DNA of 52,090 bases, taken from NCBI GenBank assembly GCA_902806435.1, contig CADCWO010000132.1, positions 1 through 52,090 of the forward strand, in the 5' to 3' direction. The notes under the pieces were generated by a model. The model had not been told where the DNA came from. It searched no databases and saw nothing but the letters and a program-made list of their open reading frames with translations. The first letter of the stretch is position 1. The number at the start of each line of letters is the position of its first letter. This stretch comes from an uncultured Synechococcales cyanobacterium. GTDB taxonomy: Bacteria; Cyanobacteriota; Cyanobacteriia; Thermosynechococcales; Thermosynechococcaceae. Shown piece after piece: positions 20,656-42,929 of this stretch. The translations under genes and the position numbers were made by a program.

Positions 20656-21083
20656 GATATCCTCCGCATTTTCCTAAAAGTCTATTTGTTGAGAGGGGTT
20701 GATTTATTCGCAAGAGTAATGTTAAATTTTCTAAAAATTAGCTTCTATGAAAGAAGTCTAAATATAAGTCAGCTTAATTCAGCTCAACCGGTAGGCAACT
20801 AGCTACTGTGTGAGGCTGGAGCGGAGGAACCACTTTATGGGGCGCATCTCTTGATTGCTATCAAGAGAGGGACATCTCTCAGTCCTAGCCCGTCAGCTAA
20901 CTCCGTAGGCATTGAGAGGAGACTGAAGAGTCAGCATTTTTCACAATCGCTTGAACTCATCAGTGTCCTTGGTTGGTAAAGGTCTGTTGTATTACCTGCC
21001 CTTGGCTCTGGAAAGCTTCAGTTAGGCTGTCGCTATATGGTGCTAGGGGGTAGTCAGTGCTAACCATGAGGTGAAAATAACTG
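20656..21083 (+). other. long leader region of the GT4 gene
   Basis: 428 bases without a gene. The middle is the first c-di-AMP riboswitch (about 20805-20930). The AT-rich stretch 20690-20790 is where the promoter should lie. The 150 bases between the aptamer and the ATG at 21084 presumably form the expression platform. Confidence 0.6.
20805..20930 (+). promoter_or_regulatory. c-di-AMP riboswitch (ydaO-yuaA), copy 1
   Basis: Matches the ydaO-yuaA aptamer: GAGCGGAGGAACCA at 20819-20832, GGGGCG at 20839-20844, then a variable hairpin (TCTTGAT/ATCAAGA), and CCCGTCAGCTAACTCCGTAGG at 20889-20909. CGGAG and CTCCG can pair. The last block is nearly invariant in this class. It precedes the GT4 gene by about 150 bases and is on the same strand. 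GACT-GAAG-AGTC followed by ATTTTT (20931-20948) could be a terminator-like switch. Confidence 0.88.
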
Positions 21084-25846: not shown

Positions 25847-26195
25847 CATTAAATACAAGATCGTGAGCGACCAGGTGCTGATACGGTACAATATCGCTTA
25901 GTACGTTACGTGGGTGGCCTAATCTGAGTCTAGTCCTGATGTTCATAAAGACATCAGAATCAGGTTTAGAGCGGAGGAACCAATTATTGGGGCTAATCTT
26001 CTAACTAAGGGGAGAGACACCTTCCAGTCTTAGCCCGTCAGCTAACTCCGTCGGTAATGGAAGGAGCACCAAAGACTTAAGCTTTTTGTAGCAGTTGTCC
26101 TTAGGTCTCCTTGCGGATATCACAACAGGATTCTAGAAGTGGTTATCCGATTTGACCCACCTCTCACTGACTGAATTTACAGAGAGGCAAAAACT
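25847..26195 (+). other. leader region of the USP-like gene
   Basis: 349 bases without a gene. A seven-pair hairpin is at 25936-25957 (CTGATGT and ACATCAG). The second c-di-AMP riboswitch is at about 25955-26075, and a 120-base stretch leads to the GTG start. Confidence 0.6.
25955..26075 (+). promoter_or_regulatory. c-di-AMP riboswitch (ydaO-yuaA), copy 2
   Basis: GAGCGGAGGAACCA at 25969-25982, ATTGGGGCTAATC at 25986-25998 and GCCCGTCAGCTAACTCCG at 26033-26050 reproduce the aptamer consensus in the same order as copy 1. CCTGAT at 25935-25940 can pair either with ATCAGG at 25959-25964 or within the hairpin CTGATGT/ACATCAG, giving two mutually exclusive 5' folds. It lies upstream of, and on the same strand as, the USP-like gene. 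Confidence 0.87.
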
Positions 26196-29780: not shown

Positions 29781-30200
29781 TTGCTGGTTAGAAGCATTGG
29801 CTGAGCTGACTTCAGCATTTTTAACATACTGGTAGGGATTCGCGTGGCTAAAGACTAAAATTATTCCCCTAGAGTTGGAACTCTTGAATCTCTCACTATA
29901 GAACTAAACCTTTGTCTAACTAAAGACTGAGCACAGGAGTCCGCTTCAATTGCTAAGTTGATTGAAGTTGAAACGATGCACTGGATGGACGTTTTGCCGT
30001 TGTGGTCCAGAGCTACCCGTTGAAGAAGAGCGATGTCAGATGGGTGGACAGTGCAACTAAGTGCCAGGTCAGCTTGGATGGTGTGGAGTTTTTATCGCTT
30101 CCTCCACTTTGTGACTGCCGAGGGAAGGCGAAACCCTTCATCAGAGCGGTCTTAGGAGTCAACATCCAGTGACTGTGGCTAGTGTAAAAAAAATAAGCAC
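29781..30200. other. 420-base gene-free region
   Basis: No convincing ORF, tRNA or repeat. GTGGAG and CTCCAC near 30080-30110 can form a six-pair hairpin with a 13-base loop. The interval carries the promoter of the GH116 gene at its left end and the 3' end of the DUF697 GTPase at its right. No U-tract terminator was found for the GTPase gene. Confidence 0.5.
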
Positions 30201-36918: not shown

Positions 36919-38682
36919 TTAGAAAGTAAAAGTGGTCCGAATCGTACCTGTGAAGACTGGGTCATTGGCACCGTTGTGCTCTGGGTTGAGCAGCACAAAT
37001 AGACCCGGTGTAATCGAGATATTGTCGTTTACCTGGAAGCGGTAAAGCCCCTCAATGTGATAAGAGGTGCCTTCATCTTCACGGTTTGCAATCGTGTTAC
37101 TGATCGCCTTTGGCGGTTGACCAACCACAATCGCGGCCAGGTTGCCTTCTTTACCTAAATCCGGGAAGGCTAAGGTGACGGCATAGTTGAGAACGTCAGC
37201 ATTATCGTCTGTAGCATTAGCCGCGTTAACTAGGCTATAGCCTGCCCAACCGGAAAGGTTGACTTTCGGATTCAACCGAAAATTCGCTTGGGCGCCAAAG
37301 GAATTGGCGGTAATTGGCACCCCAGCACCGAAGGGGCTGTTAGCGTTGGCACTACCGACACTGCTCAGGAAGCCAGTACCAGTCGGTAGGTAAGAGCGGA
37401 CATAGGTAAGACCAAAGCTGGCTTTATCAGTCGGTTCAAAGGCGATTTGAGCCGTTGCAGCATACTCACCGCCAATCAACCCGGAATTATTATCGCCTGG
37501 TTCCTGCAAGGCGTCAGCGGCAACCGTGGTAGGGACTAAATAACCAGCACTAACGGTCACCTTCTCGCCCAGACCAATATTGGCAATAAGGCCGGTGCCA
37601 TCGCCGCCCTGGCGGTAAATTGGGTTAAACCGGCCAAAGCGAGAAAGAGCACCTCGACCGCTACTTTCTAGCGGGCTGAATACTTCGACGGCGTCATTGT
37701 ACTCAACGTTAGTAGCGGCAATATAAACGTTGCCATTCGCACCTAGAGGGACGCGGTAGTAGAGGTCATCCAGCTCCAAGTTGTTTTGGGGCGTTGTCGT
37801 GCCATCAAAGGCTAGACGAGACATGTTGGTGCCTGTAACCGTGCCCAGGTTAGGAATATCTCTGCCTTGCAAACGAACTCGCAGACGGTCTTTACCAAAA
37901 AAGCTGGTATCAAAGTTTAGTCGGGCCCGGTAGCCGAAGATCGGGTTGGAGTTATCTTCAATATCAACCCCACTGGGAGCAGCGCCGCTGCGAACTGCTC
38001 TTTCGTCTCCGAAGGCATAAGCGGTAGCAAAGATCGCTTCTCCACTCAGCTTTGTGGTAGTCGAGAATTGGTTGGCATCTAGCTCATCAGTCCGGGCTTC
38101 AAGCTGATCCACCCTGCCTCGCAGGGTCGCCAGTTCAGCGGCAAACTCTTCTTGCAGTCGTTTAATGGTCGCCAGCTCTTCGGGGGACAACTGCCCAATT
38201 CGCTCTTGTAGGCTGTTTAAGCAGGCATACATCCCGGCCGCAAACTCGTAGCGCGTCAGCGAGCGGTTGCCCCGGAATGTGCCATCTGGGTAACCGGCGA
38301 TGCAGCCATAGCGTTCGACAAGAGACTGTAGCGACTGAAACGCCCAGGTACCGGGGTCAACATCCGTCAGCTGGGAAACGGAGTTAACGCGCCCGGCTGG
38401 GTCATTGCCCGTAGCATCAGGGATTTGTGATCCGGGAGCCTGTTGCAGTTGTGGGTCAACCATTTGAGGCGCTTGAGGCGCTGCGGGGCTTTGGGCTGTG
38501 ACCGGCGCTGCTGGAACAGCAGGACTTGCTTCTAAATTGGCTACGGGCTGAACGGCACTGGAGGGATCAAGCCCTGCCACTGTACCTTGAATTTCATTAG
38601 CGCTGGCTGTAGTCGCGATCGCTAGGGACGCACCCAAAACCACTGGCCCTAACATTAGGGCTTGCCATAAAATCTTAGACAT
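36919..38682 (-). CDS. SLH-domain OprB porin (iron-uptake porin/Som type)
   Basis: Outer-membrane beta-barrel channel, 587 residues. Signal peptide 1-28 ending ATTASA-NE. A Pro/Ala-rich linker spans 30-95. An SLH domain (about 104-160, AFQSLQSLVERYGCIAGYPDGTFRGNRSLTRYEFAAGMY) anchors it to the wall. A short coiled coil (165-205) precedes the OprB barrel, ending in the typical aromatic TFTF. In cyanobacteria these porins pass ions, including iron. The ribosome-binding site GAGGAG, five bases before the ATG, sits inside a sequence complementary to the Yfr1 sRNA. Confidence 0.92.
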   Translation of the reverse strand: MSKILWQALMLGPVVLGASLAIATTASANEIQGTVAGLDPSSAVQPVANLEASPAVPAAPVTAQSPAAPQAPQMVDPQLQQAPGSQIPDATGNDPAGRVNSVSQLTDVDPGTWAFQSLQSLVERYGCIAGYPDGTFRGNRSLTRYEFAAGMYACLNSLQERIGQLSPEELATIKRLQEEFAAELATLRGRVDQLEARTDELDANQFSTTTKLSGEAIFATAYAFGDERAVRSGAAPSGVDIEDNSNPIFGYRARLNFDTSFFGKDRLRVRLQGRDIPNLGTVTGTNMSRLAFDGTTTPQNNLELDDLYYRVPLGANGNVYIAATNVEYNDAVEVFSPLESSGRGALSRFGRFNPIYRQGGDGTGLIANIGLGEKVTVSAGYLVPTTVAADALQEPGDNNSGLIGGEYAATAQIAFEPTDKASFGLTYVRSYLPTGTGFLSSVGSANANSPFGAGVPITANSFGAQANFRLNPKVNLSGWAGYSLVNAANATDDNADVLNYAVTLAFPDLGKEGNLAAIVVGQPPKAISNTIANREDEGTSYHIEGLYRFQVNDNISITPGLFVLLNPEHNGANDPVFTGTIRTTFTF

Positions 38683-38687
38683 TTTTG

Positions 38688-38698
38688 ACTCCTCACAC
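38688..38698 (-). promoter_or_regulatory. predicted Yfr1 sRNA pairing site over the porin RBS
   Basis: The porin mRNA reads GUGUGAGGAGU just before the start codon. This is a perfect reverse complement of ACUCCUCACAC, the unpaired core of cyanobacterial Yfr1. The GAGGAG in it is the Shine-Dalgarno, so pairing would block initiation. Confidence 0.6.
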
Positions 38699-38843
38699 TG
38701 TACTGACTGGATCCGAAGGGCTACACCACACCCCCCGTATTATTTCTTAAATTAGTATACCTCTAAGCACTCCCGGCTTAGACAGGCAAATTAAAAAACG
38801 TAGATTGAATACCCACTTCAACAAATAACACTCTTAAAGCGGG

Positions 38844-38897
38844 TTTTGAGTGAAGCGAAGCTTAAAAAGAGATGATGAATAGTTTAAGGAGGGACTG
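38844..38897 (-). promoter_or_regulatory. conserved element upstream of the porin, copy 1
   Basis: On the minus strand: CAGTCCCTCCTTAAA, a 16-base gap, TTTAAGC, then TCACTCAAAA. The same blocks occur upstream of exbB (49674-49740). CTTAAA and TTTAAG form an inverted repeat with identical 16-base spacing in both copies. It lies 162-215 bases before the porin ATG. Confidence 0.5.
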
Positions 38898-38927
38898 AGC
38901 TCAGCTTAGCTGCCCTAAGTAAAAAAC

Positions 38928-39779
38928 TTAGCCAAACCGACCTTCAACATAGTCCTGGGTGCGGGGATGGGTGGGGGCGGTAAAGATTTCAGCCGTAGGG
39001 CCAAATTCAATCATCTGACCAATCCGCCCTTCATCCGTACTAAAAAAAGCAGTGTAATGAGAGACCCGTGACGCTTGCTGCATGTTGTGGGTAACAATCG
39101 CGATCGTTAGCTCTTGGCTGAGGGTGTGAATCAATTCCTCTATTTTCATGGTGGAAATCGGATCAAGAGCGGAGGCAGGTTCATCCATCAATAAAACCTG
39201 GGGTTTGACGGCCAGCGCCCTGGCAATGCAGAGACGTTGCTGTTGGCCGCCCGAAAGCCCTAAGGCGGACTTATGCAAGTTATCCTTGACCTCGTTCCAC
39301 AACGCCGCACTGGAGAGGGCAGACTCTACGATCGCATCTAGTTCAGTGCGCGAATAGCGGCCCCCGATTCGCACGCCATAGGCCACATTGTCATAAATAC
39401 TCATCGGAAAAGGGTTTGGCTTTTGAAATACCATGCCAATCTGGCGGCGTAACCGATTCAAATTAATCCGGTGGCTGTAGATGTTCTGGCCAAAAAACTC
39501 TACCGCCCCCTCAACCCGCACCTTGCCTTCCAACTCGCCAATCCGGTTCAAGGCTTTAATAAACGTGGACTTACCACAGCCGGAAGGACCAATAATCGCC
39601 GTCACTTGCCCGTGGTAAATATCCAGCGACACATCTTCTAGGGCCTTTTGGGAACCATAGTAGAAGCTGAGTTGCTTCGCTTTAAGAGCAGGCAGCAGTC
39701 CTGGGATTGGCGCCGCTGGACTGGCTGCTCCTAAGGGATTAGTAGGTTTGTGGGGAGGGTTCGTCTGAGGAAATTTCAT
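38928..39779 (-). CDS. pstB: phosphate ABC transporter ATP-binding protein
   Basis: 283 residues. Walker A GPSGCGKSTFIKALNRI, Q-loop GMVFQKPNPFPMSIYDNV, signature LSGGQQQR, Walker B LLMDEPASALDPI and THNMQQASRVS: a textbook PstB. An extra N-terminal 28-residue Pro/Ala-rich tail is present. Last gene of pstS-C-A-B; four bases separate it from pstA. Confidence 0.97.
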   Translation of the reverse strand: MKFPQTNPPHKPTNPLGAASPAAPIPGLLPALKAKQLSFYYGSQKALEDVSLDIYHGQVTAIIGPSGCGKSTFIKALNRIGELEGKVRVEGAVEFFGQNIYSHRINLNRLRRQIGMVFQKPNPFPMSIYDNVAYGVRIGGRYSRTELDAIVESALSSAALWNEVKDNLHKSALGLSGGQQQRLCIARALAVKPQVLLMDEPASALDPISTMKIEELIHTLSQELTIAIVTHNMQQASRVSHYTAFFSTDEGRIGQMIEFGPTAEIFTAPTHPRTQDYVEGRFG

Positions 39780-39782
39780 AGG

Positions 39783-40709
39783 CTAGCGGATCTTTAAGCG
39801 TCTGCGGGTAAAGAAACGAGAAAGGATACTGGTCAGGAGCACCAAGCCAACTAAAACTGCAGAGGCAGTCCAAGCCAGTTCAGTTTGCTCGACAAAAGGA
39901 GACTGGGAGTAGTTGAAAATCAGCACCGATAGAGAGGGAGCTGGCTTTAGCAGTCCGTCCGGCCAGGTGAGGCTTCCCAAAGCGGTAAATAGGAGTGGGG
40001 CAGTCTCCCCTGCCGCACGGGCAACTGCCAGTAAAATGCCAGTAGTAATTCCTGATAAGGCTGAGGTGACCGCGATCCGAAAGGTGGTTTGCCGCCGGTT
40101 AGCCCCTAAAGCAGCGGAAGCCAATCGTTGCGAGTCAGGGACTAGCTTCAACGCTTCTTCCGTCGTTAGAGTAACAATTGGCAGCATAATGATTGCCAGG
40201 GCAAACCCTCCAGCTAGTGCCGAAAAGCCTTTCATCGTCTGGACAATCACTCCCCAAGCAAACACCCCGGCAATGATGGAAGGCACTCCGCTGAGAATAG
40301 TGGCTATGAAGCGCACAAAGCTAGCTACGGTTTGCACAGGGCCAGATGCAGCTGCCCCCCGACCCAATTCCGATAAGAAGATGCCTGTCATTACCCCAAA
40401 GGGGATACTCAGGAGGGTGGCAATGGTGACCATGATCAAAGTGCCGAGGATGGCGTTGGCAAATCCGTTCGGCACATCGGTTACCCCAGCTGGGGCGGGT
40501 AAAGAGACAAAGACTTCCGGTGTTAAATGGGGCAGCCCTTGCCGGAGGATTTCAATCAAAATTGCCAGTAGAGGAATTAGGGCCAGACCCGTCAGCCCAA
40601 AGGCGATCGCCGTCATCCCATAGGTGAACCAGGTGCGACCTAGCGGTAGGGGATGTAAAAGCTCAGCGGCAAGACTCTTTGGGTCGGAGTTAGTGGGAGT
40701 CGCAGTCAT
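39783..40709 (-). CDS. pstA: phosphate ABC transporter permease PstA
   Basis: 308 residues with six membrane helices. Contains FLSELGRGAAASGPVQTVASFVRFIATILSGVPSIIAGVFAW and the EAA-like loop AALGANRRQTTFRIAVTSALSGI. Its ATG overlaps the pstC stop by four bases (ATGA), so it is translationally coupled. Forms the phosphate channel with PstC. Confidence 0.95.
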   Translation of the reverse strand: MTATPTNSDPKSLAAELLHPLPLGRTWFTYGMTAIAFGLTGLALIPLLAILIEILRQGLPHLTPEVFVSLPAPAGVTDVPNGFANAILGTLIMVTIATLLSIPFGVMTGIFLSELGRGAAASGPVQTVASFVRFIATILSGVPSIIAGVFAWGVIVQTMKGFSALAGGFALAIIMLPIVTLTTEEALKLVPDSQRLASAALGANRRQTTFRIAVTSALSGITTGILLAVARAAGETAPLLFTALGSLTWPDGLLKPAPSLSVLIFNYSQSPFVEQTELAWTASAVLVGLVLLTSILSRFFTRRRLKIR

Positions 40710-41770
40710 GGCAGTAATCGTTGAGGCTGATCAGCCCCAGTGTTGATTGTCGGCTCTACGCGGGTGCTGATCCCGCCTTGCTGACCCATCAGCCGCACTA
40801 GCAGTACGGCGATTATATTTACCAGGAGGGTAATTGCAAATAGAATTAGGGCCAGGTACATCAAGGCACCAATATGTAGATTGTCCAGGGCTTCGGCGAA
40901 CTCGTTGGCTAATACTGCCGGGATGGTGTAGCCCAAATCTAGTAGTGACGCACTAATCTGCGGGGAGTTGCCAATCACCATTGTGACTGCCATGGTTTCC
41001 CCTAACGCTCGCCCCAAGCCCAGCATTACCGCCCCCAAAATGCCTGATGCCCCAGCAGGCAGGAGTAGTTTGAAAATAGTTTCCCAGCGGGTCGCCCCCA
41101 GGGACATCGAAGCGCTACGCAACTCTCCAGGCACAGCCAACAACACATCCCGGCTAATCGCGGCAATTGTTGGCAAAACCATGATTCCTAAAATGACCCC
41201 AGCCGGAAGCATGCCAGGCCCGTAGGGTTCTGTGCCAAATAGCGGTAACCAGTTCAGGTAACGATAAAGCCCTTGCTGAAGCGGTTGCAAAAAAGGGATT
41301 AAGACAAAGATTCCCCACAGGCCGACAATGACGCTGGGGATGGCGGCAATCAATTCTACTAGAAATCCCAAGGGCGATCGCAGCCACAGCGGTAAAAAAT
41401 TCTCACTACTGACCAGGGCAACCGCAATCCCGACCGGAATTGCTAGTATCAGGGCGATCGCTGAGGTAACCAGTGTGCCATAGATGTAGGGCAGGGCACC
41501 AAAGGTTAGGCCTGGAACATCCCAATCCTGGCTCCAGAGAAACTTTAGACCAAATTGCTGGATTGCAGGCCGTGCTTGCTGAAAGATCACCCAGCTCATC
41601 CAAACCAGCACCACGACAATACTGAGAGCGAAACCCCGGAGAAGCCAGGAAAAGCCTTGCTCCAGCACTAGATCCCAGCGATCCGTAGTGGTGATGTCCA
41701 GGATAAGTCCAGCCTTCTGTGGATCAGGAGCCCTAGCTCCAATTGAGGAATCGTGTTCAGATGATTGCAT
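40706..41770 (-). CDS. pstC: phosphate ABC transporter permease PstC
   Basis: 354 residues from the ATG at 41770; an earlier start at 41794 would add eight residues. Core LVELIAAIPSVIVGLWGIFVLIPFL and SMSLGATRWETIFKLLLPAGASGILGAVMLGLGRALGETMAVTMVIGN is the PstC signature. Six membrane helices. It starts 83 bases downstream of the pstS stop. Confidence 0.95.
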   Translation of the reverse strand: MQSSEHDSSIGARAPDPQKAGLILDITTTDRWDLVLEQGFSWLLRGFALSIVVVLVWMSWVIFQQARPAIQQFGLKFLWSQDWDVPGLTFGALPYIYGTLVTSAIALILAIPVGIAVALVSSENFLPLWLRSPLGFLVELIAAIPSVIVGLWGIFVLIPFLQPLQQGLYRYLNWLPLFGTEPYGPGMLPAGVILGIMVLPTIAAISRDVLLAVPGELRSASMSLGATRWETIFKLLLPAGASGILGAVMLGLGRALGETMAVTMVIGNSPQISASLLDLGYTIPAVLANEFAEALDNLHIGALMYLALILFAITLLVNIIAVLLVRLMGQQGGISTRVEPTINTGADQPQRLLP

Positions 41771-41852
41771 GAAATAGCCTTGGCGGAGATACAAACAGAG
41801 GGCACCCCCGGCTGGAGATACCCCCTACAGGCGAAGCTAAAGAAACAATGAA

Positions 41853-42929
41853 TTAACGGCCAGAACCGGTTGCAGCGGTACTTACACCAACGCCACTTTG
41901 GACCGCTTGCACTACGCGATTAGCAGTAGATTGAGGGATTTGAGTATACTCAAGGCTGCTATTCAGGGCTTGGCCTCTCGTTAAAATCCACTGCACCATT
42001 CGCTTTACAGAGTCTGCCTTCGCAGGGTCGGCATATTGCTTATAGACCATGATCCAGGTTAGGCCAGTGATTGGATAGCCATTTGCGGGGTCACCCAGTT
42101 TTGTGAAGTCAACTCGGTTATCAGAATCGAACTGCACAGCTTGCAGAGCTTGATTAGCAGCTTGAACGGTAGGAGCAACATAACTACCATTTTTTGCCTG
42201 GACTTGTGCGGTTTGGAGCCTGTTGGTTTTGGAAAAAGAAGATTCGACGTAACCAACCGCTCCCGGTGTGCGCTTGACGATCTGAGCAACCCCAGGGTTA
42301 CCCTTAGCCTTCAATGAGTTTCTAGTCCAGCGAGGGGCTTTGTTAGCACCAATTCTACCTTTGAAGTAGGGATCAATCGCGCTCAGGTGATTTGTGAAGA
42401 TAAAGGTGGTGCCGCTGCTGTCAGCCCTCGTTGCTAGGCGGATTGGCTGAGCGGGAAGCCTGACACCAGGGTTGTCAGCGACAATCCGGGAGTCGTTCCA
42501 GCGAGTAATCTGGCCAGAAAAAATTGCTGGTAGGGTTTTGCGGGAAAGCTTAAGGTTATTGACGCCTGGTAGATTGTAGACTACCGCTACTGCCCCCCCG
42601 GCTGTGGGTACGTAGATAACACCACGAGAAACCTTGGCGGCTTCCTCATTTGTCATGGCTGTATCACTAGCACCAAAGTCAACGGTTCCAGCAGTTAGCT
42701 GTTTAATACCACCGCCGCTGCCAATGCCTTGATAGTTGATTTGCAGATCTGGGTAGACCTTCTTAATTTCACTGGCGTAGCGCTGATAAAGGGGTTCCGG
42801 AAATGTTGCACCAGCACCAGTTAAAGGGACTGCTTGAGCGATCGCGGTTAAAAAAGGCCCAAATACAAAGGCTGCTGTGACCGCCGAAGTCGTAGCAGTG
42901 CGCTGAAGATTAGTTGTAGGGAAAGCCAT
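41853..42929 (-). CDS. pstS: phosphate-binding protein PstS
   Basis: 358 residues, periplasmic. Signal peptide with hydrophobic AVTAAFVFGPFLTAIAQA and a cleavage-like AQA-VP near residue 33. Phosphate-loop features TGAGATFPEPLYQRYASE and NYQGIGSGGGIKQL, DFGASDTAM, RADSSGTTFIFTNHL and GAVGYVESSF are typical of PstS. Upstream Pho box at 43006-43057. First gene of the pst operon; regulation by the SphS-SphR system is expected from the box. Confidence 0.96.
   Translation of the reverse strand: MAFPTTNLQRTATTSAVTAAFVFGPFLTAIAQAVPLTGAGATFPEPLYQRYASEIKKVYPDLQINYQGIGSGGGIKQLTAGTVDFGASDTAMTNEEAAKVSRGVIYVPTAGGAVAVVYNLPGVNNLKLSRKTLPAIFSGQITRWNDSRIVADNPGVRLPAQPIRLATRADSSGTTFIFTNHLSAIDPYFKGRIGANKAPRWTRNSLKAKGNPGVAQIVKRTPGAVGYVESSFSKTNRLQTAQVQAKNGSYVAPTVQAANQALQAVQFDSDNRVDFTKLGDPANGYPITGLTWIMVYKQYADPAKADSVKRMVQWILTRGQALNSSLEYTQIPQSTANRVVQAVQSGVGVSTAATGSGR

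Follow-up and report, generated by a model that had tools for sequence, protein, structure and literature searches.

The window, by which we mean the whole stretch of 52,090 nucleotides analysed here, carries on its minus strand a porin gene whose leader contains a perfect complement to the core of the small RNA Yfr1. The features considered in the following are:

36919–38682, minus strand: porin gene (587 aa, SLH + OprB), the putative regulated gene (ORF and Pfam)
38688–38698, minus strand: Yfr1-complementary site GTGTGAGGAGT (sequence; kept in the orthologue and in most OprB-porin leaders)
38723–38734, minus strand: second stretch, GGGGTGTGGTGT, pairing with Yfr1 ACACCACACUCC over 12 pairs including one G-U (sequence and duplex prediction)
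38754–38759, minus strand: TATACT, a possible -10 element (inferred from the sequence)
38928–39779, minus strand: pstB-like ABC ATPase gene, directly upstream of the porin (ORF list)

The porin is recognised by Pfam through an SLH domain (PF00395, 30 bits, cut-off 20.8) and an OprB domain (PF04966, 195 bits, cut-off 22.9). The minus-strand sequence 5′ of the ORF reads CAGTCAGTACAGTGTGAGGAGTCAAAAATG, within which positions 38698–38688 form GTGTGAGGAGT, the exact 11-nt complement of the Yfr1 core ACUCCUCACAC. The initial annotation had proposed an 11-base complement within 38683–38702 that includes the ribosome-binding site, and both points are borne out, as the Shine-Dalgarno (SD)-like AGGAG (38693–38689) lies inside GTGTGAGGAGT, which is separated from the ATG (38682–38680) by a 5-nt spacing of CAAAA. 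A pattern search of the whole window found GTGTGAGGAGT to be unique, even at one mismatch. The start codon and the transcription start are putative; counted from the TATACT candidate, the 5′ UTR would be ∼60–65 nt long, and a scan for promoters gave no complete sigma-70 pair on the porin strand.

The porin sits behind a pstS-pstC-pstA-pstB-like gene set (window 36919–42929, minus strand). In the nearest relative found (G003, porin 60% identical at the protein level) the orthologue is likewise preceded by a pstA-pstB-like pair, and the recurrence of pst-like genes upstream in both genomes suggests a possible link of the porin with phosphate uptake. The relative's pstB (L008 3543–4100, minus strand) ends early after LSGG, at 185 aa, which suggests a frameshift or an assembly error. 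Elsewhere in the window are two c-di-AMP riboswitch aptamers (RF00379) ∼5 kb apart, at 20761–20926 (plus strand, 74.9 bits) and 25943–26071 (plus strand, 64.8 bits), and a CyVA-1 RNA (RF02965, 77.5 bits) at 29978–30054 (plus strand).

The genome to which the window belongs (4.79 Mb, 278 contigs, 99.98% complete) encodes the cognate sRNA. A covariance model locates yfr1 at L001 1479–1546 (Rfam RF01116, 50 bits versus a gathering score of 38), between an IMPDH (guaB) ORF at 234–1397 and a thioredoxin (trxA) ORF at 1775–2098, both named from their protein sequences alone. In agreement with the described gene order (PMC2190773), this is the canonical guaB-yfr1-trxA synteny. Fold prediction places the core ACUCCUCACAC in an unpaired state (0.95–0.99) flanked by two stems. 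The exact 11-mer core ACTCCTCACAC occurs twice in the 4.79 Mb, once in yfr1 (contig 9) and once, as its complement, in the porin leader, and a reversed control pattern occurs once. As simple arithmetic gives an expectation of ∼2.3 such 11-mers over both strands, the match on its own is only moderately improbable and constitutes weak evidence. The predicted duplex of Yfr1 with the isolated site has an energy of -20.1 kcal/mol, and the best duplex across the whole porin leader reaches -24.4 kcal/mol, a value attained by 0.1% of 2000 leader-segment shuffles; in the predicted fold of the leader, part of the site is only partly accessible. What chance cannot account for is the position of the site, given that just yfr1 and the porin leader carry the 11-mer, together with the comparative record.

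In the G003 orthologue, the porin leader has diverged in the rest of its upstream part but retains TGTGAGGAGT together with the start region. Both other OprB genes of the window's own genome carry GTGAGGAGT 6 nt before a candidate start. To place these on a broader footing, 92 OprB-porin leaders from 41 genomes of the class were scored by the longest contiguous Watson–Crick complement to the Yfr1 single-stranded region in the ∼25 nt before any candidate start. At least 8 complementary bases were present in 79 of the 92 porin leaders versus 0 of 273 control ORFs, the latter drawn from twenty 20-kb stretches, which represent 20 genomes and overlap the set of 41 porin genomes in 15 cases. With an independent definition of the start region the same threshold was reached by 72 of 92 porin leaders versus 1 of 269 control ORFs; as the leaders share descent, the porin counts in either tally do not represent independent events. 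The site is accordingly absent from 13–20 of the 92, and among more distant porins from named genomes it was found in just 6 of 23, some of whose starts are uncertain. Most picocyanobacterial OprB loci have a Yfr1-complementary site. The match is extended 3′ as TGAGGAGTGAA in a genus with small genomes (g5), from the same family as the window, and 5′ as TGGTGTGAGGA in other leaders, and all of these extensions fall within the unpaired stretch of Yfr1. When 82 leaders are anchored on the site, information content peaks over TGTGAGGA and drops close to background on either side, with TGAGGA as the most conserved columns; because of the anchoring this profile is partly circular, and it is the gene controls that carry the argument. 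Since yfr1 is present and the site is kept in homologues, the pairing put forward in the initial annotation faces neither a missing sRNA nor a complement lost among close relatives.

The site, the sRNA gene with its predicted single-stranded core, and the conservation in relatives are shown here, and we take it as almost certain that the match over the porin ribosome-binding site is a genuine control site. The function that we assign to it with high confidence is to bind Yfr1, whose pairing over the ribosome-binding site would block porin translation. Yfr1, presumably an abundant sRNA here and encoded elsewhere in the genome (guaB-trxA), would pair its single-stranded ACUCCUCACAC with GUGUGAGGAGU over 11 bp; the duplex would cover the porin Shine-Dalgarno and prevent 30S binding, and exclusion of the 30S subunit would in turn lower porin synthesis. 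We infer the contact between the two RNAs, its repressive effect and the size of that effect.

The alternative that survives best, although we consider it improbable, is that GUGUGAGGA is conserved as a ribosome-binding element that enhances the translation of highly expressed porins, in which case complementarity to Yfr1 would be secondary, with Yfr1 mimicking the anti-SD. Such an element would explain why AGGAG lies within the site, as the anti-SD reads CCUCC, and why the best-conserved columns, TGAGGA, are those closest to the SD. It does not readily explain why the extended match is found in just 0–1 of ∼270 control ORFs, nor why UGUG is conserved although anti-SD pairing needs no UGUG, and some sites extend 3′ instead as TGAGGAGTGAA, which is likewise Yfr1-complementary. 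When AGGAG was held fixed and the flanks of the core were shuffled, the shuffled cores matched 10.8 porins on average and 62 at most, versus 72 for the real core. Furthermore, mutations in Yfr1 or its targets change regulation or binding in Nostoc and Prochlorococcus (PMC6974561, PMC6778093).

A second alternative follows from the genomes that lack yfr1. Nearly all sampled genomes of the class have the gene, and the exceptions listed are G144, which gave no RF01116 match (genomes of the same genus do have yfr1), and four Prochlorococcus-like genomes of two genera, a label that rests partly on family and on PMC6778093. These four mostly keep the site, at 8–9 nt with one leader at 7 (g37 retains 7–8 nt and g77 9 nt), and each carries a short hairpin whose loop contains CUCCUCACAC and which precedes a terminator-like stem and a T run; for G212, the trimmed piece folds with a different pairing. 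The hairpins match the type of Yfr10, an sRNA reported in SS120 with shared targets (PMC6778093). As all four genomes carry a Yfr10-like hairpin, loss of yfr1 does not provide a clean negative control; these genomes instead offer a natural test of takeover by Yfr10. Retention of the site alongside such hairpins, and the shared targets of Yfr10 and Yfr1, would also fit a Yfr10-type sRNA with the same motif being the main porin regulator, with Yfr1 secondary. For the present genome this is most unlikely, as the exact 11-base core is confined to yfr1 and the porin leader and, at three of the four other CUCCUCACAC sites, which were inspected, nothing resembles a Yfr10 hairpin with terminator.

Least probable of all, and to our minds hardly credible, is that the match is inherited sequence devoid of present regulatory function in this lineage: the paralogous and orthologous leaders are of common ancestry and function here is predicted from sequence, but yfr1 is intact in this genome and the site persists in leaders that have otherwise drifted, as judged from the divergence of the orthologue pair and from the near-background upstream leader in the site-anchored, and hence partly circular, 82-leader set.

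Repression by Yfr1 at the ribosome-binding site remains the preferred reading. The second stretch at 38734–38723 scores better than shuffled leaders (0.5%), and other leaders show no excess of such a stretch over the shuffled expectation, for which reason it was set aside; it is probably due to chance or lineage-specific. Further targets were sought by scanning the genome for TGTGAGGA before an ATG, which gave 32 sites versus 17 for the reversed control. Among ORFs of 240 aa or longer, those with the motif close to their ATG include genes for a TonB-receptor-like protein (AMIN + Plug), a radical SAM protein (DUF3463), a peptidoglycan-binding protein, a DUF4198 protein and an FGGY kinase, together with an exonuclease VII-like gene that takes its name from its sequence only. 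Several encode envelope proteins and in this recall the Nostoc regulon; as the enrichment over the reversed control is modest, these additional targets are leads only. The TonB-receptor-like ORF with the TGTGAGGA leader (L183 466–1503, minus strand) stops after 345 aa, a domain scan found no match to a beta-barrel domain in it, and the ORF is truncated or frameshifted.

More speculatively, the Yfr1 site could be ancestral to the OprB-porin ribosome-binding sites of class Cyanobacteriia, so that within a cell most OprB porins would be set jointly by a near-constant Yfr1, or by Yfr10 where yfr1 has been lost, and the second stretch at 38734–38723 may bind a second Yfr1 here; we regard this broader proposal as possible but on balance doubtful. 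The gene controls do establish that a Yfr1-complementary ribosome-binding site is widespread in cyanobacterial OprB porins, which supports control of outer-membrane porins as an old role of the near-universal Yfr1.

The closest known systems are Alr0834 and Alr4550 of Nostoc PCC 7120, both SLH + OprB porins (PMC9705863). In E. coli, Yfr1 represses reporter fusions to alr0834 and alr4550, an interaction confirmed with core mutants of Yfr1 (PMC6974561). As in those genes, an SLH + OprB porin is here combined with a site for the Yfr1 core that lies immediately 5′ of the start codon; unlike in Nostoc, the pairing in the present organism is predicted, and the likeness is drawn from the position of the site. 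The initial annotation read the window as suggesting that a circuit reported for Som-type porins also includes the SLH-OprB porins of this lineage. The pairing itself stands, given that yfr1 is present and the site conserved, whereas the novelty does not, because two porins with SLH and OprB domains, Alr0834 and Alr4550, respond to Yfr1, so that the extension had already been demonstrated. Som-type and SLH-OprB porins are, moreover, not separate classes, and an SLH + OprB protein (L074) is found among the porins of marine picocyanobacteria that have the same site.

In Prochlorococcus MED4, the porins PMM1119 and PMM1121 are repressed by Yfr1, as cited in PMC6778093, and the same work describes repression of the PMM1121 5′UTR by Yfr1 and its relief by Yfr2. 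The published work on Prochlorococcus and Nostoc also supplies direct pairing and the titration of Yfr1 by Yfr2. The porin of the window resembles these in having a Yfr1-complementary site in its leader. In the leader of the Prochlorococcus porin L085, GTGTGAGGA ends 5 nt short of the ATG, a 9-nt match versus 11 here, and, unlike in the porin of the window, no SLH domain is recognisable in the scanned Prochlorococcus porins L080, L082 and L085. What is new here, on well-supported sequence grounds, is a further Yfr1 target site, providing a clean and testable case in an uncharacterised cyanobacterium, and the extent to which its occurrence has been tallied may be new as well.

In enterobacteria, MicF-ompF and other sRNAs cover the porin translation start region and thereby lower the amount of outer-membrane porin. 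MicF-ompF is an established case of porin repression by an sRNA (PMC6202907), and the predicted placement of Yfr1 over the translation start region of the present porin is alike. Yfr1 is nevertheless an unrelated sRNA; instead of being induced by stress, it is almost constitutive, with Yfr2 as its modulator (PMC6778093).
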